From Solicola gregarius (GTDB taxonomy: Bacteria > Actinomycetota > Actinomycetes > Propionibacteriales > Nocardioidaceae), in contig NZ_CP094970.1 in the NCBI RefSeq assembly GCF_025790165.1, forward strand, positions 2,728,001-2,792,000: a stretch of DNA of 64,000 bases, in the 5' to 3' direction. The notes under the pieces are model-generated. The model saw only the letters and a program-made list of their open reading frames with translations. It searched no databases and was not told where the DNA came from. A program made the translations under genes and the position numbers. Shown piece after piece: positions 38,194 to 53,017 of the stretch (positions within the stretch are counted from its first letter, which is position 1; each line of letters begins with the position of its first letter).

Positions 38194-38209
38194 CTAAGCA
38201 AGCGCTTAG
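38194..38209. promoter_or_regulatory. CTAAGC-N4-GCTTAG palindrome ahead of the acyl-CoA gene cluster
   Basis: ctaagc (38194-38199), aagc, gcttag (38204-38209) lies 63 bp before the first SDR start. The pattern resembles TetR-family operators found before actinobacterial fatty-acid and acyl-CoA genes. The regulator is not encoded adjacent. Confidence 0.5.
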
Positions 38210-38271
38210 TCAAGGTCGGTGAGCGCCGACGCGGGTCTCCTTCGCCGGCGCGCTGTCGATGGGAGGCGCCG

Positions 38272-39051
38272 ATGTCGGTGCGCGGGCAGGGCGTCGTCGT
38301 CACCGGGGCAGGCCGTGGCATCGGCCGAGCTCTGGCCGCTCGGCTTGCCGCCGAGGGTGCACGCGTCGTCGTCAACGACCTCGACGGGCCGGCCGCGATG
38401 GCCGTCGCCGACGAGATCGGCGCTCATGCCGTGCCCGGCGACGGCGCGTCCGAGGCGGGTGTTGCCGACCTGATCGACGCCGCTCGTGCCCACCTGGGCG
38501 AGATCGACTGCTGGTTCGCCAACGCCGGCATCGACCGCGGGCACGGTCTCGACGCGTCCGAGGACGACTGGGCGGCGTCGCTCGAGGTCAACGTTCTCGC
38601 GCACGTACGCGCGGCGCGGCTGCTCGTGCCGGCGTGGGTCGAGCGCGGTTCGGGGCGGTTCGTGGTGACCGCGTCGGCCGCGGGCGTACTCACCATGCTC
38701 GGCAGCCCGACGTACTCCGTGAGCAAGCACGGCGCCGTCGCCTTCGCGGAGTGGCTGTCCGCGACGTACCGGCATCGCGGTGTGGTCGTGCAGGCGATCT
38801 GCCCGCAGGGCGTACGAACCCGGATGCTCGAGCAGGCGGCTGCGTTGCAGGACCTGCTCAGCCGCGACACGGCGCTCGCGCCCGAGGACGTCGCCGAGGC
38901 GATGTGGCAGGCGCTGCAGGACGATCGGTTCCTGGTGCTTCCGCACGCCGAGGTCGGCACCTACTACGCCAGCCGCGCGACGCAGACCGACCGCTGGCTG
39001 GGCGGGATGAACAAGCTCCAGCAGCGCCTCGAGGGCGAGGGCGCGCTGTGA
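38272..39051 (+). CDS. Short-chain dehydrogenase/reductase
   Basis: 259-aa NAD(P)-dependent oxidoreductase: VVVTGAGRGIGRALAARLAA (TGxxxGIG), NAGIDRG, catalytic Ser in VTASAAG and YSVSKHG (YxxxK). ATG 38272 has GGGAGG upstream and follows the 16-bp palindrome. It is the first gene of a long operon of acyl-CoA metabolism and likely oxidises or reduces a hydroxyl/keto group of the pathway intermediate. Confidence 0.88.
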   Translation: MSVRGQGVVVTGAGRGIGRALAARLAAEGARVVVNDLDGPAAMAVADEIGAHAVPGDGASEAGVADLIDAARAHLGEIDCWFANAGIDRGHGLDASEDDWAASLEVNVLAHVRAARLLVPAWVERGSGRFVVTASAAGVLTMLGSPTYSVSKHGAVAFAEWLSATYRHRGVVVQAICPQGVRTRMLEQAAALQDLLSRDTALAPEDVAEAMWQALQDDRFLVLPHAEVGTYYASRATQTDRWLGGMNKLQQRLEGEGAL

Positions 39052-39118
39052 CCCACCGCATCCGATGGCGTCGTACGACCGGCGCAATGATGACCGAGAA
39101 CCGATAGGAGCAGATCGC

Positions 39119-39868
39119 ATGACCCAAACCGCCATCGTCACCGGTGCAGCCCGAGGCATCGGCGCCGCCGTCGCGAAGCGGCTCGCCTCGGACGGCCTCG
39201 CCGTCGCCGTCATCGACCTGGACGAGTCGGCCTGCAAGGCCGTCGTCGAGGAGATCGAAGGCGCCGGCGGCCGCGCGCTGGGGATCGGCGCGGACGTCTC
39301 CGACGAGGAGGCCGTGCAGGCGGCCGTCGAGCGGGTCGCCGAGGAGCTCGGCGCCCCCACGGTTCTGGTGAACAACGCCGGCGTCATCCGCGACAACATG
39401 CTGTTCAGGATGACCGCCGACGACTGGGATGCCGTGATGAACGTGCACCTGCGGGGCTCCTTCCTGATGTCGCGGGCCGCCCAGTCGTACATGACCAAGG
39501 CGGGCGGCGGTCGCATCGTCAATCTGTCGAGTACGTCCGCGCTCGGCAATCGCGGTCAGGCGAACTACTCGGCGGCGAAGGCCGGCCTCCAGGGCTTCAC
39601 CAAGACGCTCGCGATCGAGCTCGGAAAGTTCGGGGTGACGGTCAACGCGATCGCTCCCGGCTTCATCGAGACGGAGATGACCGCCTCGACGGCGGAGCGG
39701 GTGGGCGTGCCGTTCGAGGAGTTCAAGGCGGCCGCGGCGGCACAGATCCCGGTCGCGCGGACGGGCAAGCCGGACGACATCGCCCATGCCGTGTCGTTCT
39801 TCGTGAGTGAGGGAGCCGGGTTCGTCTCCGGTCAGGTGCTGTACGTCGCCGGCGGGCCGAGGGCCTGA
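39119..39868 (+). CDS. FabG-like short-chain dehydrogenase/reductase
   Basis: 249-aa SDR: AIVTGAARGIGAAVAKRLAS, VLVNNAGVIRDNMLFRMTADDW, catalytic Ser-Tyr-Lys as IVNLSSTSALGNRGQANYSAAKAGL, and VNAIAPGFIETEMTA. Close to 3-oxoacyl-(acyl carrier)/CoA reductases; here a 3-hydroxyacyl-CoA dehydrogenase role is more likely than fatty-acid synthesis. aggag precedes ATG 39119. Confidence 0.9.
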   Translation: MTQTAIVTGAARGIGAAVAKRLASDGLAVAVIDLDESACKAVVEEIEGAGGRALGIGADVSDEEAVQAAVERVAEELGAPTVLVNNAGVIRDNMLFRMTADDWDAVMNVHLRGSFLMSRAAQSYMTKAGGGRIVNLSSTSALGNRGQANYSAAKAGLQGFTKTLAIELGKFGVTVNAIAPGFIETEMTASTAERVGVPFEEFKAAAAAQIPVARTGKPDDIAHAVSFFVSEGAGFVSGQVLYVAGGPRA

Positions 39869-39883
39869 GGCGAGGCAGTCGCG

Positions 39884-39931
39884 ATGAGGACCCTTCACGG
39901 CGTCGAGACGATCCGCGTGCTGGTGCCCTGA
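39884..39931 (+). CDS. Short upstream reading frame coupled to the kinase-fold gene
   Basis: 15-codon frame (MRTLHGVETIRVLVP) preceded by gaggcgagg, ending in a TGA whose last base is the first base of the kinase ATG (39929-39931/39931). The kinase start has no Shine-Dalgarno of its own, so coupling is plausible. No regulatory codon run is visible. Confidence 0.3.
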   Translation: MRTLHGVETIRVLVP

Positions 39932-40962
39932 TGCTCGCCGCCAACCGCAACCCGCCCGGCCTCGACCTCGCGCGGCTCAGCGAGTGGTTCGCCGAATCGA
40001 TCCCCGGAGGCGGGGACGCCCTCGTCGCCGAGCTGGTTCCGGGCGGCAAGTCGAACCTCACGTACGAGGTGAGCGACGGCACGTCGACGTGGATCGTACG
40101 GCGCCCGCCGCTCGGCCACGTGCTGGCGACCGCGCACGACATGGCGCGGGAGTACCGCGTGATGTCGGCGCTGTACGACACCTCGGTACCCGTGCCGCAG
40201 ACGTACGCGCTCTGCCGCGACGACGATGTGCTCGGTGCGCCGTTCTACGTGATGGAGCGGGTTTTCGGCACGCCGTACCGTCGGGCTGCGGAGCTGGAGC
40301 GCCTGGGGCCCGAGCGCACCCGGGAGATCTCGGCCACGCTCGTCGAGACGCTCGCCACGTTGCATGCTGTCGACCCGGAGCAGGTCGGGCTCGCCGACTT
40401 CGGCAAGCCCGAAGGCTTCCTCAGCCGTCAGGTGCGGCGCTGGAAACAGCAGCTCGACGCGTCGTACTCCCGCAAGCTCCCGGCCGCGGACGAGTTGTAC
40501 CGACGACTTGCGGCGGACGTACCGCAGGAGTCGGCGCCGGGCATCGTGCACGGCGACTTCCGGCTTGACAACGTGCTCACCGACGACCGCGACCGCCCGG
40601 CCGCCGTGATCGACTGGGAGATGGCCACCATCGGCGACCCGCTCACCGACCTGGCGCTGCTCGTTCTGTACCAGCGACTTGCCACGATGCTCGGCGGCGA
40701 TGCGGTCGCCGACGCGTCTTCGGCACCCGGATTCCTCACCGAGAACGAGATTATCGATCGCTACCTTGCACGCAGTGACCGTTCGTCGGACCGCTTCGGG
40801 TTCTACCTCGGGCTCGCCTCGTTCAAGCTCTCGGCGATCCTCGAGGGCATTCACTACCGCCACCTGCGCGGTCAGACCGTTGGCCCGGGCTTCGGGCAGG
40901 TGGGCGACGCCATCCACCCGATGCTCGAGACCGGCCTCACCGCACTGAAGGAGTACCGCTGA
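39931..40962 (+). CDS. Aminoglycoside-phosphotransferase-fold kinase, ACAD10/11 N-terminal type
   Basis: 343-aa phosphotransferase family protein. [16 protein letters not shown] (nucleotide loop), [41 protein letters not shown], catalytic loop [16 protein letters not shown] with Asp and Asn, and [20 protein letters not shown] (metal Asp) all match the kinase half of vertebrate ACAD10/11 and bacterial LvaA. These phosphorylate the 4-hydroxyl of 4-hydroxyacyl-CoA. The gene ends in a TGATG overlap with an ACAD11-like dehydrogenase, making a split version of the animal fusion. Pathway role is inferred from that partner. Confidence 0.88.
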
Positions 40963-42194
40963 TGGACTTCGGCTTCGACCCCACGACCGAGGAGCTGCGC
41001 GCCAGCCTGCTGGACTTCATGGACGGACACGTCTACCCGGCGGAGCCGGTCTTCCGTGAACAGGTCGCGCGACTGGACGATCGATGGGCCTGGGACTCCG
41101 CGCCGGTGATCGCCGAGCTGCGCGCCGAGGCGCGTCGCCGTGGCCTGTGGAATCTGTTCCTTCCCGGTGAGCAGGGCGCCGGCCTGACCAACCTCCAGTA
41201 CGCGCCGCTCGCCGAGATCACCGGACGCAGTGGTTCGCTGGCGCCGGCGGCACTGAACTGCTCGGCACCCGACACCGGCAACATGGAGGTGCTGGCGATG
41301 TTCGGCACCGACGAGCAGCGCGAGCGGTGGCTGAAACCCTTGCTGGAGGGCGAGATCCGGTCGTCGTTCGCGATGACCGAGCCCGACGTGGCCTCGTCGG
41401 ACGCAACGAACATCGCGACCCGGATCGAGCGCGACGGCGACGATTACGTGATCAACGGCCGCAAGTGGTGGATCACCGGTGCGATGAATCCGAACGCACG
41501 CGTCTTCATCGTCATGGGCAAGACCGATCCGGATGCCGATCGGCATCGACAGCAGAGCATGATCCTGGTTCCGCGCGACACCCCGGGCGTCGAGATCGAG
41601 CGCGGCATGGAGGTGTTCGGCTATGACGACCACGACCATGGTGGCCACGCCGAGATGTCGTTCACCGACGTACGCGTGCCCGCGTCGTACCTGATCGGCG
41701 ACGAGGGCGATGGTTTCGCGATCGCACAGGCGCGTCTCGGGCCAGGGCGGATCCATCACTGCATGCGCTCGATCGGCCTTGCCGAGCGCGCGATAGGGCT
41801 GATGTGTGCGCGCGCCGAGGAGCGTGTCGCGTTCGGCAAACCGGTCGCGGCACAAGGAGTCGTACGCGACTGGATCGCCGAGTCGCGCGTCCGGATCGAG
41901 CAGCTGCGACTGCTCGTGCTCAAGACCGCCTGGCTGATGGACACCGTCGGCAACAAGGGCGCTCACACCGAGATCCAAGCGATCAAGATCGCCACCCCGA
42001 CCGCAGTGCAATGGATTCTCGACAAGGCGATCCAGGTTCACGGTGCAGCGGGACTCTCGCAGGACTTCCCGCTTGCCGAGGCGTACGCCGGAATCCGCAC
42101 CCTGCGCTTCGCCGACGGTCCCGACGAGGTGCACAAGAACGCGCTTGCTCGGGCCGAGCTGCGCCGGCAGGCCGATGGGAGGGAGCGGTCATGA
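40962..42194 (+). CDS. ACAD11-like acyl-CoA dehydrogenase
   Basis: 410-aa flavoprotein. Striking matches to the ACAD10/11 subfamily: [20 protein letters not shown], the [11 protein letters not shown] segment, [40 protein letters not shown] and the [20 protein letters not shown] block, then [19 protein letters not shown]. In this subfamily the enzyme removes phosphate and isomerises 4-phosphoacyl-CoA to 3-hydroxyacyl-CoA after action of the partner kinase. The ATG overlaps the kinase stop. Substrate chain unknown. Confidence 0.92.
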
Positions 42195-43378
42195 GTGGCA
42201 AGCCGACCGAGGACGTCCGCCGGCGCATCACGGAGTTCCTGGTCGCACACGACCCGACGACGACCGGCCGGCTCGAGTTCCTCCGCGCCCGGTACGACGC
42301 GGGGCTGGCGTGGGTGGCGTTCCCGGAAGGCCATGGCGGGCTGGATCTTCCGCAGGCGCTCCAGCTCGAGGTCGACCGGTTGTTCGACGATGCCGGCGCC
42401 CCCGACAACAATCCTCGCGCGAACGGCATCGGACTCGGCATGGCCGCGCCGACGATTCGGCGCTTCGGCACCGAGGAGCAGAAGCACCGCTTCCTGCGGC
42501 CGTTGTGGACCGGCGAGGAGGTGTGGTGCCAGCTGTTCAGTGAGCCGAACGCCGGCTCCGACCTGGCCGCCATCGCGACCCGCGCAGTACGCGACGGCGA
42601 TACCTGGGTGGTCAACGGCCAGAAGGTGTGGACATCCGGCGCCCACAACGCACGCTTCGCGATCCTGGTCGCCCGGACGGACCCCGACGTCCCCAAGCAT
42701 CAGGGGCTCACGTACTTCCTGTGCGACATGAGCGATGCCGGGGTCGACGTACGCCCGCTGCGACAGATCACCGGTGAGGCGGAGTTCAACGAGGTCTTCC
42801 TGACCGACGTACGGGTCCCGGACGCGAACCGGTTGGGCGCCGAGGGTGAGGGTTGGAAGGTCGCGAACGCCACCTTGAACAACGAACGCGTGGCGATCGG
42901 CGGTCGGGCGGGTCCGCGTGAGGGCGGCATGGTCGGCGTCGTCGCACACACCTGGCGTGCGCGTCCCGAGCGCCGGACTCCCGAGCTGCACGACCGGCTC
43001 GTGCGGCTATGGGTCGAGGCCGAGGTCGCCCGGCTCACCGGACAGCGGCTCCGCCAGAAGCTGGCGCTCGGTCAACCCGGCCCCGAAGGCGCGGCGATGA
43101 AGCTCACCTTCGCCCGGCTCAACCAACAGCTGTCCGGCCTCGAGGTCGAGCTGCTCGGCGAGGACGGCCTGCGGTACTCCGACTGGACGCAGGTCAGACC
43201 CGAACACACCGATATGACAGGGCGCGACGCGGGCTACCGGTACCTGCGCGCGAAGGGCAACTCGATCGAGGGCGGCACCTCGGAGATCCTCCGCAACGTC
43301 GTGGCCGAGCGCGTACTCGGGCTGCCACCCGAACGCCGTGTCGACAAGGACGTGCCGTGGAAGGAGATCCAGAAATGA
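42191..43378 (+). CDS. Acyl-CoA dehydrogenase, probable subunit of a heteromer
   Basis: 395-aa FadE-like protein: [58 protein letters not shown] (FAD-binding), [20 protein letters not shown] and the C-terminal [24 protein letters not shown] overlap at both ends. Adjacent, divergent-sequence pairs of acyl-CoA dehydrogenases in actinobacteria often form alpha2beta2 enzymes for steroid or branched side chains; the following gene is the likely partner. Confidence 0.9.
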
Positions 43379-44538
43379 GCGCCGAGGAGAGAGCGACGGA
43401 CGAGCGCGACCAGACATCACCGAGTGAGCTCGACCTGCTCTACAGCGACGTCGAGGACGACCTGCGCTCCACGGTGCGCGGCCTCCTCGCGGAGCGCTGT
43501 GACCCCAGCGCGGTGATCGCGACTTACGACGGCGATCGCTCGATCGTCGACGGGCTCTGGAAGTCGCTCGCGGCAGATCTCGGGTTGGCGGGCCTCCTCG
43601 TTCCCGAGGACAGAGGCGGGGCCGGCGCCTCGGCACGTGAGGCCGCCGTCGTACTGGAGGAGCTGGGGCGGGCGGCGGCGCCGGTGCCATATCTCACCAG
43701 TGCGGTCGTCGCGACGGTCGCCGTGCTCGGAGCCGACGACGAGTTGGAGGTTCCGCGGAACCTCTTACTCCCCTCGCTCGCCGCCGGCGAGCGTACTGCC
43801 GCACTCGTCGTACCGCTGTCGACGCCGCCGGACGGTTCGTTCGCGACGGTCGCGGCCGACTCCGACCGGCTCTCCGGCACGGTCACCAGCGTGGCCGGCG
43901 CGCTCGAGGCCGAGGTCCTGCTGGTGCCCGTCGCGACCACCGACGGGTTCTCCGTGTACGCCGTGTCCGCCGCCGACGCCACTGTCACGCCCGTCGCGTC
44001 GCTCGACATGACTCGCCAGCTCGCCGACGTCACGTTCGCCGGCGCCGCCGGCGCGGTGGTCGTCGCCGATGGCGAGTCGGGCGTACGTCGGGCGCTCGAG
44101 GTAGGCGCGGCGTTGCTCGCGTCCGAGCAGGTTGGCGTTGCGCGCTGGTGCCTGGACGCAACGGTGGAGTACCTCCAGGAGCGCCGGCAGTTCGGCCGCG
44201 CCGTCGGCGGCTTCCAGGCGCTCAAGCACCGTCTTGCCGATCTGTACACCGGTGTGGAGTCGGCCGTCGCCGCGGCGCGGTACGCGGCCGCGACGATCGC
44301 GGACGACGATCCCGACGTACCCGTTGCGACCGCGGTGGCGCAGGCGTACTGCAGCGACCTCGCCGTCACCGCGGCCGAGGAAGCGGTCCAGCTGCACGGC
44401 GGAATCGCCATGACCTGGGAGCATCCGGCACACCTGTATCTGAAGCGTGCAAAGGCCGATCAGCTCGCGTTCGGCACCGCCGGCACACATCGGGCCCGGC
44501 TCGCCGGCCTGGTAGACCTACCGAAGGAGAGCACATGA
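43375..44538 (+). CDS. Acyl-CoA dehydrogenase, divergent partner subunit
   Basis: 387-aa acyl-CoA dehydrogenase-fold protein lacking the EGTxxI segment of catalytic single-subunit enzymes. Present are LGLAGLLVPEDRGGAGASAR, QVGVARWCLDATVEYLQERR, FGRAVGGFQALKHRLADLYT and LHGGIAMTWEHPAHLYLKRA. The sequence from about residue 130 to 240 is Ala/Val-rich and poorly conserved. Overlap with the preceding dehydrogenase supports a two-subunit enzyme. The N-terminus [11 protein letters not shown] resembles the MrpE repeat peptide. Confidence 0.85.
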   Translation: MSAEERATDERDQTSPSELDLLYSDVEDDLRSTVRGLLAERCDPSAVIATYDGDRSIVDGLWKSLAADLGLAGLLVPEDRGGAGASAREAAVVLEELGRAAAPVPYLTSAVVATVAVLGADDELEVPRNLLLPSLAAGERTAALVVPLSTPPDGSFATVAADSDRLSGTVTSVAGALEAEVLLVPVATTDGFSVYAVSAADATVTPVASLDMTRQLADVTFAGAAGAVVVADGESGVRRALEVGAALLASEQVGVARWCLDATVEYLQERRQFGRAVGGFQALKHRLADLYTGVESAVAAARYAAATIADDDPDVPVATAVAQAYCSDLAVTAAEEAVQLHGGIAMTWEHPAHLYLKRAKADQLAFGTAGTHRARLAGLVDLPKEST

Positions 44539-45572
44539 GTACGAAGAGCACCCAGATCCGGCTGGCCGCGCGGCCGGTCGGAGAGCCGCAGGACTCGGAC
44601 TTCGAGTTCGTCACGACCGAGCTCCCCGCACTCGGCGACGGGCAGGTGCTGCTGCGCACCGTCTATCTCTCCCTGGATCCCTACATGCGAGGCCGGATGA
44701 GCGCGGCCAAGTCGTACGCGAAGCCGGTCGAGGTCGGCGACGTGATGGTGGGCGCCACCGTGTGCGAGGTGGTCGAGTCGCGTTCGCCGAAGCGCGGCGT
44801 CGGCGACCTCGTACTCGCGTACACCGGCTGGCAGACGTATGCAGTCGCGGAGGCACACCACACGCGCCGCCTGGACCCTGGTGCGGCTCCGATCTCGACC
44901 GCACTCGGCGTGCTCGGCATGCCGGGATTCACCGCGTACGCGGGGCTGCTGGAGATCGGCCGTCCGCAGCCGGGAGAGACCGTTGTGGTCGCGGCGGCCA
45001 GCGGACCGGTCGGATCTGCGGTCGGTCAGATCGCGAAGGTCAAGGGTGCCCGCGCGGTCGGTATCGCCGGTGGTGCCGAGAAGTGCCGCGCGCTGCTCGA
45101 GGAGTTCGGCTTCGATGCGGCGGTCGACCATCGCTCGGCGACGTTCCGCGACGACCTGGAGGCCGCGACGCCCGACGGGGTCGATGTCTACTTCGAGAAC
45201 GTCGGTGGTCCGGTGAGCGCGGCCGTCGTACGTAGGCTCAACAAGTTCGCGAGAGTGCCCGTGTGTGGGTTGGTTGCCAACTACAACGCGACCGAAGCGC
45301 CGCCCGGGCCCGATCGCCTGCCGGGCTTCCTCGGCGCGATCCTCACCCTGAGCCTGACCGTTCGTGGCTTCATCCAGGACGAGTTCGTGCCGACGCGTCA
45401 TGACGACTTCCTGCGCGAGATGGCCGGATGGCTGCGCGACGGCTCGGTGCGCTACCGCGAAGACATCGTCGAGGGCCTCGAGCAGACCCCCGACGCGTTC
45501 CGTGGGCTGTTGGTGGGGCGCAACTTCGGCAAGTTGCTCGTACGCGTCGGCGAAGACCTGACGCGCGAGTGA
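44535..45572 (+). CDS. Zinc-independent MDR-family NADP oxidoreductase (CurA-like)
   Basis: 345-aa enoyl/quinone-type reductase. SLDPYMRGRMSAAKSYAKPV, the GMPGFTAYAGLLEIGRPQPG element, TVVVAAASGPVGSAVGQIAK (NADP-binding AxxGxxG), VDVYFENVGGPVSAAVVRRL and the tyrosine near RYREDIVEGLEQTPDAF are typical of leukotriene-B4-dehydrogenase/CurA-like proteins acting on alpha,beta-unsaturated carbonyls. In the operon it may reduce an enoyl-CoA or enone intermediate. SD gaaggaga before ATG, which overlaps the previous stop. Confidence 0.88.
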   Translation: MSTKSTQIRLAARPVGEPQDSDFEFVTTELPALGDGQVLLRTVYLSLDPYMRGRMSAAKSYAKPVEVGDVMVGATVCEVVESRSPKRGVGDLVLAYTGWQTYAVAEAHHTRRLDPGAAPISTALGVLGMPGFTAYAGLLEIGRPQPGETVVVAAASGPVGSAVGQIAKVKGARAVGIAGGAEKCRALLEEFGFDAAVDHRSATFRDDLEAATPDGVDVYFENVGGPVSAAVVRRLNKFARVPVCGLVANYNATEAPPGPDRLPGFLGAILTLSLTVRGFIQDEFVPTRHDDFLREMAGWLRDGSVRYREDIVEGLEQTPDAFRGLLVGRNFGKLLVRVGEDLTRE

Positions 45573-45582
45573 GGAGCGTCGA

Positions 45583-46734
45583 ATGGACCTGTCGCTGACC
45601 GAGGAACAGCAGAGCTTCCGCAGGCTGGCCAGGGAGTTCCTCGACAAGGAGGTCGTGCCACACCGCGCGGCCTGGGATCGTGCGGAGTCGGTCGACACAG
45701 CGGTGATCCCCAAGCTGGGTGACCTCGGCTTCTTCGCGCTCACCCTCCCCGAGGAGTACGGCGGCGACGACGGCGACGCGCTCACGTACTGTGTCGCGAT
45801 GGAGGAGCTCGGACGCGCAGACTCCGCCGTACGTGGGATCGTATCGGTCTCGAACGGCCTTGTGGGCAAGGTGATCGCCACTCGTGGCACCGACGAGCAG
45901 AAGGCGCGGTGGCTGCCGGGGATCGCATCGGGCCGCCGGCTCGGCTGCTTCGGACTCACTGAGCCCGACAACGGCTCGGACCCCGCGAACCTGCGTACGC
46001 GCGCGGTGCGTGCGGGCGACGAGTACGTGCTCAGCGGCACGAAGGTCTTCATCACCAACGGGACCTGGGCGGACGTGTGTCTCCTGTTCGCGCGTACGGA
46101 TGACTCCGGAGCAAAAGGCATCTCGGCGTTCCTGGTGCCGACCGACAGCGCCGGCTTCGTCTCCCGTGAGATCAAGGGCAAGCTCGGCCTGCGGGGTCAG
46201 GCGACCGCCGAGCTGTCGCTCGATGGCGTACGTGTGCCCGTGAGTGCCCGGATCGGCAATGAGGGTGAGGGCTTCGCGATCGCGATGGCCTCCCTCGACA
46301 AGGGGCGGGTGAGCGTCGCGGCCGGGTGTGTCGGCATCCTGCAAGGCTGTCTCGACGCGGCAGTCGAGTACGCGAGGGAGCGCAGACAGTTCGGTCGCGC
46401 GATCGCGTCGTACCAGCTCGTCCAGGACCTGATCGCCGACATCTCGGTCGACACGGACGCCGCCCGACTGTTGACGTGGCGCGCTGCCACCCGCATCGAT
46501 GCCGGCGAGCCGTTCGGAACGGCCGCCTCGAAGGCGAAGTACTTCGCGTCCGAGGCCGCCGTACGCGCGGCGAACAGCGCCATCCAGATCTTCGGCGGGT
46601 ACGGCTACATCGACGAGTACCCGGTGCAGAAGTACATGCGCGATGCGCGCGTCATGACGCTCTACGAAGGCACGTCGCAGATCCAGAAACTGCTCATCGG
46701 CCGCGCCGAAACGGGCGTCAGCGCGTTCAGCTGA
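45583..46734 (+). CDS. Acyl-CoA dehydrogenase, short/medium-chain type
   Basis: 383-aa canonical acyl-CoA dehydrogenase: MDLSLTEEQQSFRRLAREFL, CFGLTEPDNGSDPANLRTRA, VFITNGTWADVCLL, QLVQDLIADISVDTDAARLL and the catalytic Glu in VMTLYEGTSQIQKLLIGR. FGGYGYIDEYPVQKYMRDAR is the FAD/ETF-side motif. It is the last gene of the operon and the only one of the four here with a full single-subunit catalytic signature. Chain-length preference not assignable. Confidence 0.93.
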   Translation: MDLSLTEEQQSFRRLAREFLDKEVVPHRAAWDRAESVDTAVIPKLGDLGFFALTLPEEYGGDDGDALTYCVAMEELGRADSAVRGIVSVSNGLVGKVIATRGTDEQKARWLPGIASGRRLGCFGLTEPDNGSDPANLRTRAVRAGDEYVLSGTKVFITNGTWADVCLLFARTDDSGAKGISAFLVPTDSAGFVSREIKGKLGLRGQATAELSLDGVRVPVSARIGNEGEGFAIAMASLDKGRVSVAAGCVGILQGCLDAAVEYARERRQFGRAIASYQLVQDLIADISVDTDAARLLTWRAATRIDAGEPFGTAASKAKYFASEAAVRAANSAIQIFGGYGYIDEYPVQKYMRDARVMTLYEGTSQIQKLLIGRAETGVSAFS

Positions 46735-46776: not shown

Positions 46777-48003
46777 CTACTCGTCTGCGGCCATCAACGC
46801 CAGGCTGAACAGCAGCCGCTCGCGGGGATCGGCGAGGTCGCGGCCGGTGAGCTCGGCGATCTGGCGCATCCGGTAGATCACCGTGTTGCGGTGGCAGTAG
46901 AGCTCCTCGGCGGCGTGCGTCGGCGATCCGTTGTGGGCAACGAGCGCGGCCAACGTCGCCAGCAGTACGTCCGCCTGCTGGCCCTGCTGACCACGCAGTG
47001 GGCCGATGGTGCGCTCGACGAGCAGGTTGGTCACATCCGGGGCGGAGGTCAGCAGCACCTCGGGCAGGCGATCGGTCACCGCGGCGACCGCCGGGCCGGT
47101 ACGCGGGAGGGTCTCGACGGTCCCTGCCGCGAGCTGGTACGCGGTGCAGAACCCACCCAGCCCGTCGGGCGCCTCGGCAACGCCGGCGCGGCCGGTGGTG
47201 ATCTGGTCGAGCAGAGCGACCAGGTCGGCGACGTTCGACTCACCCAGCTGCACCAGGCCGAAGTACAGGTCGCCGCGGACGTGCCAGTACGACATCAGGC
47301 CGGCCCGCTCGAGATGGTCCTCGGGCGCGCGCAGCGGAGCATCGAGCGATCCGTCGTAGTGCGCGACGACGCAGGCGACGGGTGCGTCTGTCGCGACGCC
47401 CAGCACCTCGCGTACCTCGGCGGCGAACTCCGGATCGCTTCCGCGGCCCTCGACGAGGGCGTCGAGCAGCCGCTGCTGACGCTGCAGGTCGCGGCGCTGC
47501 AGTCGCGCGGACTCGCGCCGGTACGAGTCGATCAGGGTCGCGTTCTGTACGTCGAGCGCCGACCAGGCGCGTTGGCCCGCCGTGAGCAGCACCTCGTCGT
47601 CGATGCCGATCGTCGGGTCGTGTCGCTGAGCGAGCAACGCCTCCCAGAGCACCCGGGTGCCGAGGGTGTACGCATTGAGCACGAGCTCCATCGGCACGCC
47701 CTGCTGGGCGCGGCGCCTACCGGTCTCCCGCCACACGTGGACGGCTCGCTCGTCCTCGTCGGCAATGCCGGCCATGGTGCGGATGCCGCGACGTACGTGC
47801 TCTCGGGTGCTCTGGCGGACATCGGCCTGTAGCTCGGGGACGTACTCGTACCACTGCTCGTCGCGTTCCATCAGGGTCAGGGTGATGTCGTCGGCGATCG
47901 CGTCGCAGCGATCGAGCAGCGACGCCCACGCGCGTCGTACCTGCGCCTGCAGGTCCTCGGCGTCGACGGCCGGCGTCCCACCCATGGCCGCAGCATTCAC
48001 CAT
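46777..48003 (-). CDS. PucR/CdaR-type transcriptional regulator
   Basis: 408-aa regulator with a long helical sensory N-terminus and the C-terminal PucR helix-turn-helix: LAALVAHNGSPTHAAEELYC, HRNTVIYRMRQIAELTGRDL, LLFSLALMAADE. ATG 48003 is chosen because it gives a complete N-terminal domain; ATG 47985 is also possible. It is convergent with the dehydrogenase operon and divergent from the LIV transporter genes, so it probably controls one or both. Confidence 0.87.
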   Translation of the reverse strand: MVNAAAMGGTPAVDAEDLQAQVRRAWASLLDRCDAIADDITLTLMERDEQWYEYVPELQADVRQSTREHVRRGIRTMAGIADEDERAVHVWRETGRRRAQQGVPMELVLNAYTLGTRVLWEALLAQRHDPTIGIDDEVLLTAGQRAWSALDVQNATLIDSYRRESARLQRRDLQRQQRLLDALVEGRGSDPEFAAEVREVLGVATDAPVACVVAHYDGSLDAPLRAPEDHLERAGLMSYWHVRGDLYFGLVQLGESNVADLVALLDQITTGRAGVAEAPDGLGGFCTAYQLAAGTVETLPRTGPAVAAVTDRLPEVLLTSAPDVTNLLVERTIGPLRGQQGQQADVLLATLAALVAHNGSPTHAAEELYCHRNTVIYRMRQIAELTGRDLADPRERLLFSLALMAADE

Positions 48004-48203
48004 TTGCACAGCCCAGCCAAGGCCTCGGGCGAGATCAGGGCGATCTGCACCAGCAATTCTGTGCACTCCGCCCATGTCGCCGGCTGTGCGCAGTGACCAA
48101 AGTGTGCTGCGTCACGCCGCCAACGCTCGACCGCCGACGACGCCGGTCGTTTGCCGCGTCGCGTCACGGGGCGCCAGAGTCCGGCCGCCGCCCGAGGAGG
48201 GCC

Positions 48204-49022
48204 ATGAGCGAGCATGAGAACACCGTCCCGCTGTTCTCGATGAGCGATGTGTCCGTGACCTTCGGGGGCATCCAGGCGTTGTCCGATGTCGCGTTGGACG
48301 TCGGTTCGCGGCAGGTGCTCGGCCTGATCGGGCCGAACGGTGCCGGCAAGACGACGCTGTTCAACGTCGCGTGCGGGTTCGTACGCCCGGACAGCGGGTC
48401 GCTGTATCTGCGGGGCAAGCGGGTCGAACGGCTGCGGCCGCACCAGCTCGCCGACCACCGGATCTCACGCACGCTGCAGGGACTCGGGCTCTTCGACCGG
48501 ATGACGGTGCTCGAGAACGTCATGGTCGGTGCCGACCGCCATGCACAAACGGGCTTCCTGTCCGCACTGGCCGGAGTCGGTCATCGCGATGATGCGCGGC
48601 TCGTATCCCGATCGCGGGCGCTGCTCGAGGAGCTCGGCATCGAGGCGTACGCCGACCGGCTGCCGACCAGCCTGCCGTACCCGATCCGCAAGCGCGTCGC
48701 ACTGGCCCGCGCGTTGGTCGCCGAGCCCGAGCTGTTGCTGCTGGATGAGCCGGCGAGCGGTCTGTCCCAGGAGGAGATGGCCGACCTCGGGACCCTCATC
48801 CGCGGACTCACCGACCGGATGTCGGTGATGCTCGTCGAGCACCACATGGACCTGGTGATGTCGGTCTGCGACGACGTCTGCGTACTCGACTTCGGCCGGG
48901 TCATCGCGCGCGGAGCACCGGACGACGTACGTCGCGACCCCGCCGTGCTGGCCGCGTACCTCGGCGACGAGGTCGAGCACCGAGCGACGGAGGTGGGCCG
49001 ATGTTCGAGGTACGCGATCTGA
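48204..49022 (+). CDS. livG: LIV-type ABC transporter ATP-binding protein
   Basis: 272-aa ATPase. Walker A GLIGPNGAGKTTLFNVACG, Q-loop ISRTLQGLGLFDRMTVLENV, signature-like LPYPIRKRVALARALV, Walker B PELLLLDEPASGLSQEEM, H-loop MLVEHHMDLVMSV. The first of two ATPases in a branched-chain amino acid/short organic acid import system. GAGGAGGG precedes ATG 48204. The C-terminal tail overlaps the livF start by 22 bp. Confidence 0.93.
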   Translation: MSEHENTVPLFSMSDVSVTFGGIQALSDVALDVGSRQVLGLIGPNGAGKTTLFNVACGFVRPDSGSLYLRGKRVERLRPHQLADHRISRTLQGLGLFDRMTVLENVMVGADRHAQTGFLSALAGVGHRDDARLVSRSRALLEELGIEAYADRLPTSLPYPIRKRVALARALVAEPELLLLDEPASGLSQEEMADLGTLIRGLTDRMSVMLVEHHMDLVMSVCDDVCVLDFGRVIARGAPDDVRRDPAVLAAYLGDEVEHRATEVGRCSRYAI

Positions 49023-49705
49023 CGGCCGCGTACGGTCCCGTGACCGCACTCGACGGTGTCTCGTTCACGGCGCCGAAGGCGAAGGTGACCGCGGTGCTCG
49101 GTGCGAACGGCGCCGGCAAGACGACCTTGCTGCGCACTGTCTCCGGGCTCGTACGACCACAGCGTGGGCAGGTCGTGCTCGACGGCGACGACATCACCCG
49201 CGCGCCGGTCGAGACGATGTCATCGCGCGGCCTCGCACACGTACCCGAGGGGCGCGGCGTCATCGCCGAGCTGACGGTCGAGGAGAACCTCCGCCTCGGC
49301 GCGCTCGGTGGAGCAGACCGTACGCGGCGGGGCGACACCGAGCGGGTCTACGAGCTGTTCCCGGTGATCGGCGACCGGCGCAACGCGACGGCGCACGTGC
49401 TTTCCGGTGGGGAGCGGCAGATGCTGGTCATCGGGCGGGCCCTGATGGCCGCGCCGAAGGTGCTGCTCCTCGACGAGCCGTCGCTCGGCCTCGCACCGCG
49501 GATCGTCGCCCAGATCCTCGACCTGCTTCGCTCGCTCGTCGAGAGCGAGGGTCTGACCGTCGTGCTCGTCGAGCAGAACGCCCGAAGCGCCCTGTCCATC
49601 GCCGACCTCGGCGTCGTACTCAACCTCGGCACGGTGGTGGCCAACGACGACGCGGCCACCCTCGCCGACGACGTGCAGCTGCGTCACGCGTACCTCGGAT
49701 TCTGA
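49001..49705 (+). CDS. livF: LIV-type ABC transporter ATP-binding protein
   Basis: 234-aa ATPase. FEVRDLTAAYGPVTALDGVS, Walker A VLGANGAGKTTLLRTVSG, HVPEGRGVIAELTVEENLRL (typical LivF), signature HVLSGGERQMLVIGRALMAA, Walker B VLLLDEPSLGLAPRIV. ggaggt 6 nt upstream of the ATG. Pairs with the preceding ATPase. Confidence 0.94.
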   Translation: MFEVRDLTAAYGPVTALDGVSFTAPKAKVTAVLGANGAGKTTLLRTVSGLVRPQRGQVVLDGDDITRAPVETMSSRGLAHVPEGRGVIAELTVEENLRLGALGGADRTRRGDTERVYELFPVIGDRRNATAHVLSGGERQMLVIGRALMAAPKVLLLDEPSLGLAPRIVAQILDLLRSLVESEGLTVVLVEQNARSALSIADLGVVLNLGTVVANDDAATLADDVQLRHAYLGF

Positions 49706-49717
49706 GCAGGAGACCGT

Positions 49718-50596
49718 ATGCAGCAGTTCGTCAACACCGCACTCGGTGGTATCACTCTGGGCGCCGTGTACGCCGCCTTCGCCCTGGCGCTGAACCTGAT
49801 CTGGCGATCGACGCGCATCGTCAACTTCGCGCAGGCGCCGATGGCCATGATCACCACGTACGTCGCGCTGGTGCTCATCGACGAGGGGTACTCGTACTGG
49901 GTGGGGTTCGCGGTCGCCCTGCTGTCCGGGCTGGTGCTCGGTGCGGTGGTCGAGCGAGTGGTTATCCGTCCGGTCGAGGGCAAGCCGGACATCAACGCGA
50001 TCATCCTGACGCTGGGACTGTTCGTGGTGCTGCACTCGGCGGCAGCGATCGTCTTCGGCTCGCGCTTCCAGTCGTTCCCGGCGCCGTTCGGGCTGCGGGG
50101 CATCGAGGTCGGCGGTACGTCGATCGCGCTGACACCGTTCGGGGTGTTTACCGTGGTCGCGGTGGCGACCGTGATGGTCCTGCTGGTGTTGCTCTTCAGG
50201 TATACCGACCTCGGGCTCAAGATGCGGGCGTCGGCGTTCGGCCCGGAGGTCGCCCGCCTCCTCGGTGTCCGAGTCGGCAGGATGCTCACGCTCGGGTGGG
50301 CGCTCGCCGCGCTCGTCGGGTCGTTGTCCGGTCTGCTCATCGCGGGCGGGAGCCTCGTGCACCCCGCGTACATGGACTCCGTCGTCGTATACGGGTTCGT
50401 CGCCGCAGTGCTCGGTGGTCTGGACAGCCCGGTGGGCTCGGTGGTCGGCGGAGTGCTACTGGGCCTGTCGTTGAGCTTCGTCAGCGGGTACGTCGGCTCG
50501 GAGCTCGTGCCGCTGTCCGCGCTCGCGATCCTGATGGTCGTGCTGCTCCTACGACCGGGCGGGCTGTTCTCGCACGTCGCCGAGCGGAGGGTCTGA
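49718..50596 (+). CDS. livH: LIV-type ABC transporter permease
   Basis: 292-aa integral membrane protein with about eight helices. TALGGITLGAVYAAFALALN, RSTRIVNFAQAPMAMITTY, and LGLKMRASAFGPEVARLLGV (EAA-like loop) are family features. Together with livM it forms the pore. aggaga precedes ATG 49718. Confidence 0.92.
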   Translation: MQQFVNTALGGITLGAVYAAFALALNLIWRSTRIVNFAQAPMAMITTYVALVLIDEGYSYWVGFAVALLSGLVLGAVVERVVIRPVEGKPDINAIILTLGLFVVLHSAAAIVFGSRFQSFPAPFGLRGIEVGGTSIALTPFGVFTVVAVATVMVLLVLLFRYTDLGLKMRASAFGPEVARLLGVRVGRMLTLGWALAALVGSLSGLLIAGGSLVHPAYMDSVVVYGFVAAVLGGLDSPVGSVVGGVLLGLSLSFVSGYVGSELVPLSALAILMVVLLLRPGGLFSHVAERRV

Positions 50597-50597
50597 A

Positions 50598-51638
50598 ATG
50601 ATCCGCCGGTTCACCCGCGTGCCGCTCGTCCGGCACCTGCTGCTCGCCCTCGTCGGACTGGCCGCCGTCGTCGTGGTGCTCGAGTCGACCAGTCCGTTTC
50701 GCAATGCACAGCTGGCGAATGTCGCGTACCTCGGCATCGCGGCCGGAGGGCTGACCGTGCTGACCGGGCTGAACGGTCAACTCTCGTTGGGACATGGCGC
50801 GTTCATGGCCATCGGGGCGTACACCACCGCGCTGCTGCTGCAGGACGCCGACCCGGCTCTGCCGCTCGTCGGCGTCCTCGCCGTCGCGACCGTCGTCGCT
50901 CTCGTGTGCGGGGTCGTCGTCGGAGTGCCCGCGGCGCGTCTGCACGGCCCGTACATTGCCGGTGCCACCTTGGCGTTGGCGATCGCGATTCCCAGCACCG
51001 CGTTGTTCTTCGACGATCTGGGCGGTGAGCAGGGACTCAACGTGCTCGTGCCCGACCTGCCGACATGGATTCTCGACGCGGCGTACTTCGTCACCGGCAA
51101 CGAGATGGACCGCACCCGCTCCATCGCCTACATCGGGTGGGTCTGCCTGATCGTGACGTACGTACTGCTCGCAAACCTGCAACGCAGCCGCGTCGGGCGT
51201 ACGTGGCGGGCGGTACGCGACGACGATGTCGCCGCCGAGATCGCCGGGATCCACCTGGGGCGCGCACGGGTGCTCGCCTTCGTCGTGAGCGCAGGGTGTG
51301 CCGGCCTTGCCGGCTCGGTGATGGCGATGGCCGTCCGGATCACCGCCCCGAGCGGGTTCACTCTCAACCTGTCGTTGCTGCTGCTCAGCGCGGTCGTGCT
51401 CGGCGGTCTCGGCAGCCTCGCCGGCGCGCTCATCGGCTCTGCACTGCTGACCTTCCTGCCGCAGGTCGTCACGGACGTGGGCGTCGACGCCGGACTCACC
51501 GACGTACAGGCCGCACAGCTGTCACCGCTCGTCTATGGCCTCGTCACGATGGCCGTCATCCTGCTCGCGCCCGCAGGTCTCGTCGGTAGCCTGCGCGGGC
51601 TGTTGCAGCGACGGCGCCTCGCCAGTGCGGGGAACTGA
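50598..51638 (+). CDS. livM: LIV-type ABC transporter permease
   Basis: 346-aa permease. GGLTVLTGLNGQLSLGHGAF, MAIGAYTTALL, and RTWRAVRDDDVAAEIAGIHL with the AGCAGLAGSVMAMAVRITAP segment are typical of LivM. Immediately downstream of livH (1 bp gap). Confidence 0.92.
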   Translation: MIRRFTRVPLVRHLLLALVGLAAVVVVLESTSPFRNAQLANVAYLGIAAGGLTVLTGLNGQLSLGHGAFMAIGAYTTALLLQDADPALPLVGVLAVATVVALVCGVVVGVPAARLHGPYIAGATLALAIAIPSTALFFDDLGGEQGLNVLVPDLPTWILDAAYFVTGNEMDRTRSIAYIGWVCLIVTYVLLANLQRSRVGRTWRAVRDDDVAAEIAGIHLGRARVLAFVVSAGCAGLAGSVMAMAVRITAPSGFTLNLSLLLLSAVVLGGLGSLAGALIGSALLTFLPQVVTDVGVDAGLTDVQAAQLSPLVYGLVTMAVILLAPAGLVGSLRGLLQRRRLASAGN

Positions 51639-51688
51639 CCTCACCGACCCCATCGCGGCGTACGCCGCCGCAACCAACAGGAGGCACC

Positions 51689-53017
51689 ATGAGATCGACA
51701 ACAGTGCGGGTCGCCGGCGCGCTGACCGCCGCGGCGCTGCTGGCCGCATGCGGCGCCGGCGAGAGCCGCGATGATGACGACAGCGGGGGTGGGTCCGCCG
51801 TCGGGATCACCGATGACTCGATCAAGATCGGCGCGCACTTCCCGCTCACGGGAGTCGCGGCTCCGGGCTACAGCGAGATCCCCTCAGGTCACCAGGCGTA
51901 CTACGACTACGTGAACGCGAACGGTGGCGTGAACGGGCGCAAGATCGAGTTCGTCGTCAAGGACGACGCGTACGACCCCACGAAGACCAGCAGTGTGACG
52001 AACGAGCTCGTGCTCGAGGACGAGATCTTCGGAATGGTGTCGGGGCTCGGCACACCGACCCACAGCGCGGTCGTCGACTTCCTCAACTCCGAGGAGGTGC
52101 CCGACCTGTTCGTCTCCAGTGGCTCGCTGATGTGGGGCGACGACCCCGAGGCGAGGCCGTGGACGTTCGGCTGGCAGCCCGACTACGAGATCGAGGGCAA
52201 GATCATCGGTCAGTGGGTCAAGGAGAACATGCCCGATGCCAAGGTGGGCTTGTTCCTGCAGGACGACGACTTCGGCGAGGACGGCGAGGCCGGCGTACGT
52301 CAGTACATCGACGACCAGATCGTCGACGTGCAGAGGTACACGCCGGGCAACACCGACGTCGGCCCGCAGATCGCCGCGCTCCAGGCCTCGAAGGTGGATC
52401 TGGTGCTCGGCTTCAACGTGCCCTCGTACACGGCGCTCAGCCAGCTCGTGGCGATGAAGCTGAACTTCACGCCGAAGTGGTTCTACAGCAATGTCGGCTC
52501 GGACCCTGCGCTCGTCGGATCGTTGCTCGCCAGGTTCTCGGAGGGCTCGGTCAAGGACGATGCGAGCCTGCTCGATGGCGTACTCAGCACCGAGTACATT
52601 CCCGGCGTCGATGCCCCCGACGATCCGTGGATGAAGCTCTGGCAACAGGTCTGGGACGAGTACGGCGAGGGCGGCAAGCTGACGAACTATCGCGTCTACG
52701 GGATGTCGGAGGCTTACACGTTCGTGCAGGCCCTGCAGGCCGCGGGCGATGACCCGACCCGCGAGAGCGTCGTCGAGGCGCTCGAGCAGGTCGGTGGCGA
52801 CTTCGAGGGGCCAGGCATGGCGCCGTTCCGGTACTCCGAGGACAGCCACCTCGGGATCTCCGGCATGTCGGTCGTCGAGCTCAAGGGTGGGAAGGCGGAC
52901 CCGCTCACGCCGGTCCTGGTCACCGACATCGGAGACGCCGAGATCACCGAGGACGACTCGGCCGCCGGCGACGTGCCGCCGGACAACGGCATCCCTGACG
53001 AAGAGCCCGCTTCCTGA
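51689..53017 (+). CDS. livK: LIV-type substrate-binding lipoprotein
   Basis: 442-aa periplasmic-binding-type lipoprotein. The lipobox LLAAC places the lipidated cysteine at residue 21. The receptor-ligand (Peripla_BP_6) domain starts IGITDDSIKIGAHFPLTG, with SGHQAYYDYVNANGGVNGRK and VVSGLGTPTHSAVVDFLNSE-type segments. Acidic extensions at both ends. An aggagg lies upstream of the ATG. The binding pocket cannot be read to a ligand; the linked acyl-CoA ligase suggests a carboxylic acid. Confidence 0.9.
   Translation: MRSTTVRVAGALTAAALLAACGAGESRDDDDSGGGSAVGITDDSIKIGAHFPLTGVAAPGYSEIPSGHQAYYDYVNANGGVNGRKIEFVVKDDAYDPTKTSSVTNELVLEDEIFGMVSGLGTPTHSAVVDFLNSEEVPDLFVSSGSLMWGDDPEARPWTFGWQPDYEIEGKIIGQWVKENMPDAKVGLFLQDDDFGEDGEAGVRQYIDDQIVDVQRYTPGNTDVGPQIAALQASKVDLVLGFNVPSYTALSQLVAMKLNFTPKWFYSNVGSDPALVGSLLARFSEGSVKDDASLLDGVLSTEYIPGVDAPDDPWMKLWQQVWDEYGEGGKLTNYRVYGMSEAYTFVQALQAAGDDPTRESVVEALEQVGGDFEGPGMAPFRYSEDSHLGISGMSVVELKGGKADPLTPVLVTDIGDAEITEDDSAAGDVPPDNGIPDEEPAS

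Follow-up and report, generated by a model that had tools for sequence, protein, structure and literature searches.

A kinase–dehydrogenase pair predicted to act on 4-hydroxyacyl-CoA in a probable catabolic island of Solicola gregarius

We analysed a stretch of 64,000 nucleotides from the genome of the actinobacterium Solicola gregarius (4.9 Mb, single contig; NZ_CP094970.1, positions 2,728,001 to 2,792,000 of the forward strand), referred to as the window (GC 66-70%; coordinates are those of the window unless stated otherwise), and suggest a function for two adjoining genes in it, encoding a kinase and an acyl-CoA dehydrogenase of the ACAD11 type. The best explanation, with a probability of about 0.82, is that the pair turns 4-hydroxyacyl-CoA into 2-enoyl-CoA via 4-phosphoacyl-CoA, inside a catabolic island. 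Because the active-site residues are kept, the bit-score gaps are wide and the two genes co-occur, phosphorylation of 4-hydroxyacyl-CoA and conversion to 2-enoyl-CoA is the most likely predicted activity. Homology, residues, gene order, conservation and co-occurrence were computed here; both reactions have been shown by others for relatives, and we infer the same activity for the window proteins.

In the published route, a kinase with ATP forms 4-phosphoacyl-CoA from 4-hydroxyacyl-CoA and an FAD enzyme eliminates the phosphate, giving 2-enoyl-CoA with no net redox change (PMC12440821, PMC11342911, PMC6692424; these three papers were available in part, and what is taken from them holds for those parts). 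The animal enzyme ACAD11 thereby strips fatty acids of a hydroxyl at carbon 4, and the two window genes encode close relatives of its two halves. LvaA/LvaC is the published split bacterial form (PMC12440821, PMC11342911), and in vitro the domains of ACAD10 could be exchanged for bacterial orthologues (PMC11342911).

Results

ACAD11-type dehydrogenase and its kinase

The two genes of the pair are as follows (gene families were assigned with Pfam and NCBIfam profiles).

39931..40962, + strand: kinase of the aminoglycoside phosphotransferase (APH) fold, 343 aa (PF01636, 187 bits), presumed 4-hydroxyacyl-CoA kinase of the LvaA/ACAD11 N-terminal type
40962..42194, + strand: ACAD11/LvaC-type acyl-CoA dehydrogenase, presumed 4-phosphoacyl-CoA eliminase (human ACAD11, 2wbi, 460 bits; residues; tree)

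Besides human ACAD11, the dehydrogenase matched mouse ACAD11 (457-459 bits) and 4hr3 (440 bits), which we take to be a Mycobacterium abscessus protein, and the next dehydrogenase outside the group scored 162 bits. The gap in E-values (four ACAD11-type entries between 1e-137 and 1e-130, the next dehydrogenase at 1e-46) excludes chance likeness to ACAD11. Within the own genome the query matched 20 stretches, the second best with 138 bits.

Two sequence blocks, claimed as ACAD11-specific in an earlier note on this DNA, were both found: an 11-residue block ending in HGGH (41616-41648) and RIHHCMR (41748-41768), at the same places as FGYMDNMHGGH and RIHHCMR of mouse ACAD11. The mouse residues R626, H634, R637 and D753 have been tied to 4-phosphoacyl-CoA turnover by mutation or modelling (PMC12440821), and all four have identical counterparts in the window dehydrogenase, including R258 and D385 (codon 42114-42116). 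D385, the catalytic Asp replacing Glu, aligns with mouse D753, and the 8v3v structure, with N at that position, confirms the residue identity. Across all 121 dehydrogenase rows these four columns do not vary, and 114 rows keep the Cys of HCMR; similarity was the criterion for choosing the alignment rows, and second copies of the window proteins are among them. None of five other dehydrogenases of the own genome has R626, either His or the Met; Glu stands in the catalytic column in two of them and Asp in none, and one has Arg in the R637 column. The last His of HGGH, which by counting is mouse H597, is kept in 119 of the 121 rows, and its substitution in mouse ACAD11 lowered the activity only partly (PMC12440821). 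The helix-breaking Pro (human P463) is present in the window protein, as Pro also is in three of five outgroup rows at the chosen column.

Mouse ACAD11 is nested among bacterial members in the dehydrogenase tree, and the group is split from other dehydrogenases with SH-aLRT 96 (a quick tree of 76 of the 126 rows with very long outgroup branches, sampled without ACAD10 and LvaC). Bit scores, residues and tree therefore support assignment of this predicted enzyme to the ACAD10/11-LvaC group.

The kinase matched 9o56 (201 bits), 3dxp (181 bits) and the mouse ACAD11 kinase domain (175 bits), with the next kinase at 59 bits. Residues D220, N225, R86 and R176 of the mouse kinase, both Arg being modelled at CoA (PMC12440821), have identical counterparts in the window kinase, the catalytic Asp being D209 (codon 40555-40557). 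The Asp, the Asn and the two Arg are conserved in 88 of 88 rows, a count that carries no independent weight, since similarity decided which rows were included. In a rooted tree of 34 proteins, sampled without LvaA and ACAD10, the 28 family rows part at 81/98 from six outgroup rows (other APH proteins of the own genome); membership of the kinase in the wider group that pairs with ACAD11-type dehydrogenases is supported at the sequence level.

Association of the two genes in other genomes

The related loci compared here are the best 80 of at least 597 candidate stretches, with dehydrogenases 76-87% identical to that of the window, and they are actinobacterial wherever the record names the group. 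The kinase gene stands directly 5' of the dehydrogenase gene in 63 of the 80 loci and near it, non-adjacent, in four more. Both genes overlap by one base in 28 of the 63 adjacent loci, as TGATG in all 12 of the 28 that were read. The same overlap, reported in the earlier note, was read directly in the window, where the kinase stop TGA (40960-40962) shares its last base with the dehydrogenase ATG (40962-40964). The two are separate open reading frames in different frames, by which a fused form in the window is excluded; no systematic search for fused bacterial cases was made.

With thresholds of 1e-60 and 1e-25, both genes were found in 32 of 58 relatives, the kinase alone in one, the dehydrogenase alone in none and neither in 25. 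Phylum-wide (119 genomes) the respective counts were 49 with both, one with the kinase only, two with the dehydrogenase only and 67 with neither, and the combined set of 176 distinct genomes contained 80 with both genes and four with one only. Co-occurrence in other actinobacteria, which the earlier note had proposed as a check, is thus near perfect: 84 genomes have at least one of the genes, and 80 of these have both. The pair lies far apart in some phylum-wide genomes (e.g. G066, G107, G129), so the co-occurrence is more than linkage. One could imagine an ordinary dehydrogenase beside a phosphotransferase of the antibiotic-resistance type, as the fold of the kinase is that of the aminoglycoside phosphotransferases; such a chance neighbourhood is extremely improbable in view of the ACAD10/11-type residues and is ruled out by the adjacency and the co-occurrence.

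On plasmids (neighbourhoods read in 8 of 128 plasmid records), a phosphotransferase gene is located beside the dehydrogenase homologue in Paraburkholderia, Novosphingobium, Streptomyces, Rhodococcus and Haematobacter, and within 2 kb of it in Deinococcus. A Tistrella plasmid (L123:4035-8267) carries an ACAD11-type gene followed by one for an HPr-kinase-like protein, with 32.4 bits to Hpr_kinase_C, just below the cut-off; possibly this is a non-homologous kinase in the place of the APH kinase. The Tistrella ACAD11-type gene also adjoins a gene of the AtuA family (acyclic terpene utilisation).

Several observations weigh against the proposed function of the pair. Thirteen of the 80 loci have no kinase gene in the stretch, four of which (L060, L077, L078, L106) end at contig ends, and none was seen in the stretch examined around the homologue on plasmid pHG1 of Cupriavidus necator. 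The Fisher value for co-occurrence (3.8e-45, 176 distinct genomes) ignores genome relatedness. In G001, a genome of the same genus, no kinase adjoins the dehydrogenase (89% identical), and the only kinase match is a distant protein (36% identical), which might serve the dehydrogenase there. In the rooted tree a clade with 100/100 support unites the mouse ACAD11 kinase with proteobacterial kinases (3dxp and three from plasmids; the same mouse clade was recovered in a quick tree of 58 of the 88 rows), and the window kinase falls outside it, with other actinobacterial kinases. The earlier note had made its reading depend on neither protein falling outside the ACAD10/11 clades, which in its strict form holds for the dehydrogenase and fails for the kinase; on this sampling the latter appears to be a separate lineage, not a direct orthologue of the ACAD11 kinase. 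Finally, the island as annotated in the window contains no enoyl-CoA hydratase and no thiolase; by a crude gene caller, with each family taken from one example, a MaoC hydratase gene was detected in 23 and a thiolase gene in 12 of the 80 loci.

The own genome encodes a second kinase of the family (35% identical, genome positions 1806885-1807862), followed by a short-chain dehydrogenase/reductase (SDR) and a histidine phosphatase (1805319-1807886), with no adjoining ACAD11-type gene. An SDR and a histidine phosphatase have also been described beside the LvaA homologue of Pseudomonas citronellolis (PMC6692424).

Operon and probable catabolic island

The pair is part of a group of eight same-strand genes, in the order SDR1, SDR2, kinase, ACAD11-type dehydrogenase, ACADL, ACADS, CurA and ACAD3, followed by regulator, transporter and ligase genes. 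The features other than the pair are:

38272..39051, + strand: SDR1, short-chain dehydrogenase/reductase (PF00106, 141 bits; scanned as 38269-39051)
39119..39868, + strand: SDR2, FabG-like short-chain reductase (TIGR01830, 260.7 bits, below the cut-off of 297.75; scanned from 39065)
42191..43378, + strand: ACADL, large-subunit-type acyl-CoA dehydrogenase (best solved relatives Tcur3483, 6wy9/6wy8, then 4x28 chain A)
43375..44538, + strand: ACADS, partner-subunit-type acyl-CoA dehydrogenase (best solved relative Tcur3481, 6wy8 chain A)
44535..45572, + strand: CurA-type NADPH-dependent alkenal/enone reductase (NF058644, 530.9 bits, cut-off 440)
45583..46734, + strand: ACAD3, acyl-CoA dehydrogenase of the canonical kind, the usual catalytic position being occupied by Glu (YEGT) (PF00441, 178 bits)
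46777..48075, - strand: PucR-type regulator, convergent with the operon and transcribed away from the transporter genes (PF13556)
48093..53017, + strand: Liv-type ABC transporter, with two ATPases, two permeases and a binding protein (51689-53017) (Pfam)
53044..54555, + strand: AMP-forming acyl-CoA ligase, presumed CoA activation step (PF00501, 293 bits)

From the kinase gene to the CurA gene the adjoining frames overlap by 1-4 bases (ATGA at 42191, 43375 and 44535), which is what a single transcript would lead one to expect; a 10-bp gap precedes ACAD3 at 45583. The two SDRs, further dehydrogenases and reductase listed in the earlier note were all recognised, the SDRs 5' of the pair, and two dehydrogenases, the CurA-type reductase and a third dehydrogenase 3' of it. 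The span given there, 38194-46734, does contain the genes, but 38194 is the first base of a palindrome described below, and the start of SDR1 is most likely the ATG at 38272. The functional unit likely extends to about 54555.

Conservation of these genes among the 80 loci is partial. SDR1 is matched with >240 bits in 35 loci, SDR2 with >300 bits 5' of the dehydrogenase gene in 31, and ACAD3 with >450 bits in six; ACADL adjoins the ACAD11-type gene in 28, the PucR gene is present in six and CurA in one. Five loci (L059, L063, L064, L108, L114) have all five transporter genes behind the PucR gene, in unchanged order (59-79% identical, the binding protein partial at the locus end); in some of the relatives, then, the operon is accompanied by both regulator and transporter. 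The ligase has as best solved relatives 8weu/8wev, a fatty-acyl-CoA synthase and feruloyl-CoA synthetase, and its position lies beyond the ends of the compared loci. The island is thus partly conserved, with a Liv-type ABC transporter, a CoA ligase, PucR and a steroid-type heteromeric dehydrogenase.

Genome G001 (L126:6634-10392) keeps an NmrA-like gene, the dehydrogenase and CurA; SDR1, SDR2, the kinase, ACADL, ACADS and ACAD3 were not found in its 19.9-kb stretch.

ACADL and ACADS match different chains of the same crystals (Tcur3483/Tcur3481, and chains A and D of 4x28), and very probably the predicted proteins form one heteromeric enzyme. They correspond to complementary subunits of those enzymes, which presumably act on steroid side chains, but with moderate scores only (92-131 bits). 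For ACADS, 4x28 chain D came third, behind an isovaleryl-CoA dehydrogenase, and the NCBIfam model IpdE2 scored 200 bits, below its cut-off of 450.

Predicted pathway and possible substrates

The ABC transporter would import an acid and the ligase would form its CoA ester. The 4-hydroxyl may arise from a 4-keto group through reduction by one SDR, and the pair would then remove it: the kinase would phosphorylate the 4-hydroxyl of 4-hydroxyacyl-CoA using ATP, and the ACAD11-type enzyme would bind the 4-phosphoacyl-CoA and expel the phosphate through a transient FAD redox cycle, releasing 2-enoyl-CoA to beta-oxidation. The remaining SDR, the heteromeric ACADL/ACADS, ACAD3 and the CurA-type reductase would process the rest of the molecule. 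The role of every gene outside the pair is a predicted one; with good reason, the operon may be expected to degrade 4-hydroxy or 4-keto acids, and short, long, branched and ring-bearing acids are all possible substrates.

The steroid-type heteromeric dehydrogenase beside the pair mildly favours a bulkier substrate. Refining the proposed function, we tentatively consider as substrate of the pair, in place of a short linear acid, an acyl-CoA that is bulky or bears a ring, such as a terpenoid- or steroid-like side chain with a C4 hydroxyl. The match of ACADL and ACADS to complementary Tcur3481-Tcur3483 and 4x28 subunits, with their presumed steroid side-chain role, and the AtuA-type neighbour in Tistrella are consistent with this, whereas both proteins score below the cut-offs of every NCBIfam model matched, and the pair, which adjoins ACADL in a minority of the loci, is not tied to it.

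The CurA-type reductase, an equivalog match above the cut-off with the leukotriene/prostaglandin reductase family as its second NCBIfam match, suggests another use of the pair, the salvage of 4-hydroxyalkenals and 4-hydroxy acids from oxidised lipids, in which CurA would saturate the alkenal and the pair would remove the 4-hydroxyl. G001 keeps dehydrogenase and CurA together without the rest of the operon, and the mammalian route through a phospho-intermediate may have a part in the metabolism of 4-hydroxynonenal (PMC11342911). Lipid salvage is nevertheless unlikely, as CurA occurs in a single named locus and the adjoining transporter and ligase suggest an external growth substrate.

For the levulinate-like substrate proposed in the earlier note we detected no specific support. 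An operon of the lva type acting on levulinate would agree with the presence of functional equivalents of LvaA, LvaC, LvaD (SDR) and LvaE (ligase), judged from the published lva composition (PMC6692424), but the lvaB position between kinase and dehydrogenase is empty, transporter and regulator are of other types and the extra dehydrogenases would be superfluous for a C5 acid, which makes levulinate quite improbable.

Comparison with known systems

The lva operon of Pseudomonas putida (PMC6692424) resembles the window operon in having separate kinase and dehydrogenase genes, an SDR and a CoA ligase in a catabolic operon. In P. putida lvaB lies between lvaA and lvaC (as placed from the locus tags PP_2791 and PP_2793), whereas the one-base overlap in the window leaves no room for it; P. 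citronellolis also lacks lvaB (PMC6692424). The lva operon has an acetate-symporter-type transporter and the sigma54 regulator LvaR, and the window has the Liv-type ABC transporter, PucR and a TetR-type palindrome, together with three additional dehydrogenases and the CurA reductase (LvaA/LvaC were compared by description, not by sequence). Mouse and human ACAD11 (8v3u, 8v3v, 2wbi) share both domains and the reported active-site residues with the window proteins; they differ in being one fused protein, and the window kinase is from a separate lineage. With ACAD10 the window pair would be expected by analogy to share the two activities, and the order HAD–kinase–dehydrogenase recurs in 13 of the 80 loci; the HAD domain sets ACAD10 apart, as the window operon has no HAD gene (the ACAD10 sequence was not compared).

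Enzyme pairs of this kind are widespread and already known, with published chemistry, and the split state is not special, LvaA/LvaC being a published split form. Homologues of lvaABCD have been cited for Alpha-, Beta- and Gammaproteobacteria, and the actinobacteria are a phylum not named in that list in the available part of the source (PMC6692424). In the literature searched, which leaves out most subscription journals, we found no description of an actinobacterial or other bacterial kinase–dehydrogenase operon like that of the window, which is weak evidence, and none related to the palindrome as an operator. The additions made here are the partly conserved island, the palindrome beside a TetR gene in relatives and the HAD gene 5' of the kinase in 13 of 80 loci.

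Normal beta-oxidation is for the most part unable to handle 4-hydroxy acids, and the mammalian enzymes clearing them were reported only in 2024-2025. The many actinobacterial operons with the pair would supply separate, easily expressed model enzymes, and the neighbouring transporter, ligase and extra dehydrogenase genes could help to show which 4-hydroxy or 4-keto acids these bacteria encounter. The loci with the HAD gene first would make it possible to study, with separate proteins, the regulatory role that has been proposed for the HAD domain of ACAD10.

HAD gene in related loci

An HAD-fold gene is located 5' of the kinase gene in 13 of the 80 loci, immediately before it in nine.

L050:6338-6958, L059, L061, L063, L064, L067, L076:1197-1943, L104, L107, also L048, L052, L054, L062: HAD-fold gene, in the order HAD–kinase–dehydrogenase

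The other 12 HAD proteins are 46-66% identical to that of L076. In the six sequences whose start was read, the first HAD motif is D-[YW]-G, without the second Asp of DxD; the ACAD10 HAD likewise lacks the second Asp (PMC11342911), and it has no counterpart in the lva operon, according to the available part of PMC12440821. The HAD protein scored 68.5 with TIGR02247, below the cut-off of 125.4, and YihX (glucose-1-phosphate phosphatase) is among its best solved relatives, which leaves homology to the ACAD10 HAD in particular unproven. A constant partnership was rejected, since the HAD gene occurs in only those 13 loci and in 12 of the 58 relatives. All 12 of these relatives also hold the dehydrogenase; eight are from one genus, in which the HAD gene is non-adjacent. 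The own genome gave no HAD match at E 1e-20. The 13 loci recall ACAD10 by gene order and motif only, a lead obtained without sequence comparison to ACAD10.

Upstream palindrome and related loci

38194..38209, no strand: palindrome CTAAGCAAGCGCTTAG (CTAAGC-N4-GCTTAG, 16 bp), presumed repressor operator, 62 bp 5' of the SDR1 start

This is the single match of CTAAGC-N4-GCTTAG in the window, with 0 expected. The whole genome has a single occurrence of the shorter form TAAGC-N4-GCTTA and likewise one of its backward control, a number at chance level by itself; the evidence for the palindrome is therefore its position and recurrence, not its rarity. The exact form was detected in 25 and the shorter form in 43 of the 80 related loci (mononucleotide shuffles gave expectations of 0.0 and 0.2), and a TetR gene is located within 200 bp of the palindrome in 27 of the 28 loci holding both. 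In the own genome, the nearest match to the TetR protein of locus L057 is 51% identical and unlinked to the operon.

The long form is present in 64 of 196 genomes of the order, the own genome included. In eight genomes of one genus from another family (G038, G041, G043, G046, G048, G051, G054, G056) the single palindrome is far from the ACAD11-type gene or on another contig, and in g7, the largest same-family genus compared, only 2 of 46 genomes have it. An operator dedicated to the pair is ruled out by these counts and distant copies, which point to a wider regulon; the palindrome is neither specific to the pair nor required for it.

That the actinobacteria hold a distinct lineage of islands for 4-hydroxyacyl-CoA assimilation, combining transporter, ligase, kinase, ACAD11-type enzyme and a steroid-type heteromeric dehydrogenase, with a TetR-type repressor acting on CTAAGC-N4-GCTTAG and, in a subset, HAD–kinase–dehydrogenase as a split ACAD10 in which the HAD protein would restrain the kinase in the manner of ACAD10, is a rather doubtful proposal, and the wider regulon slightly lowers its odds.

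In Aeromicrobium (L086:7530-9221, L090, L100, L118) the ACAD11-type gene has no kinase gene in the stretch, and it is accompanied by an SDR1-like gene 3' and the palindrome about 500 bp 5'. In L086 it lies directly 3' of a MaoC hydratase gene.

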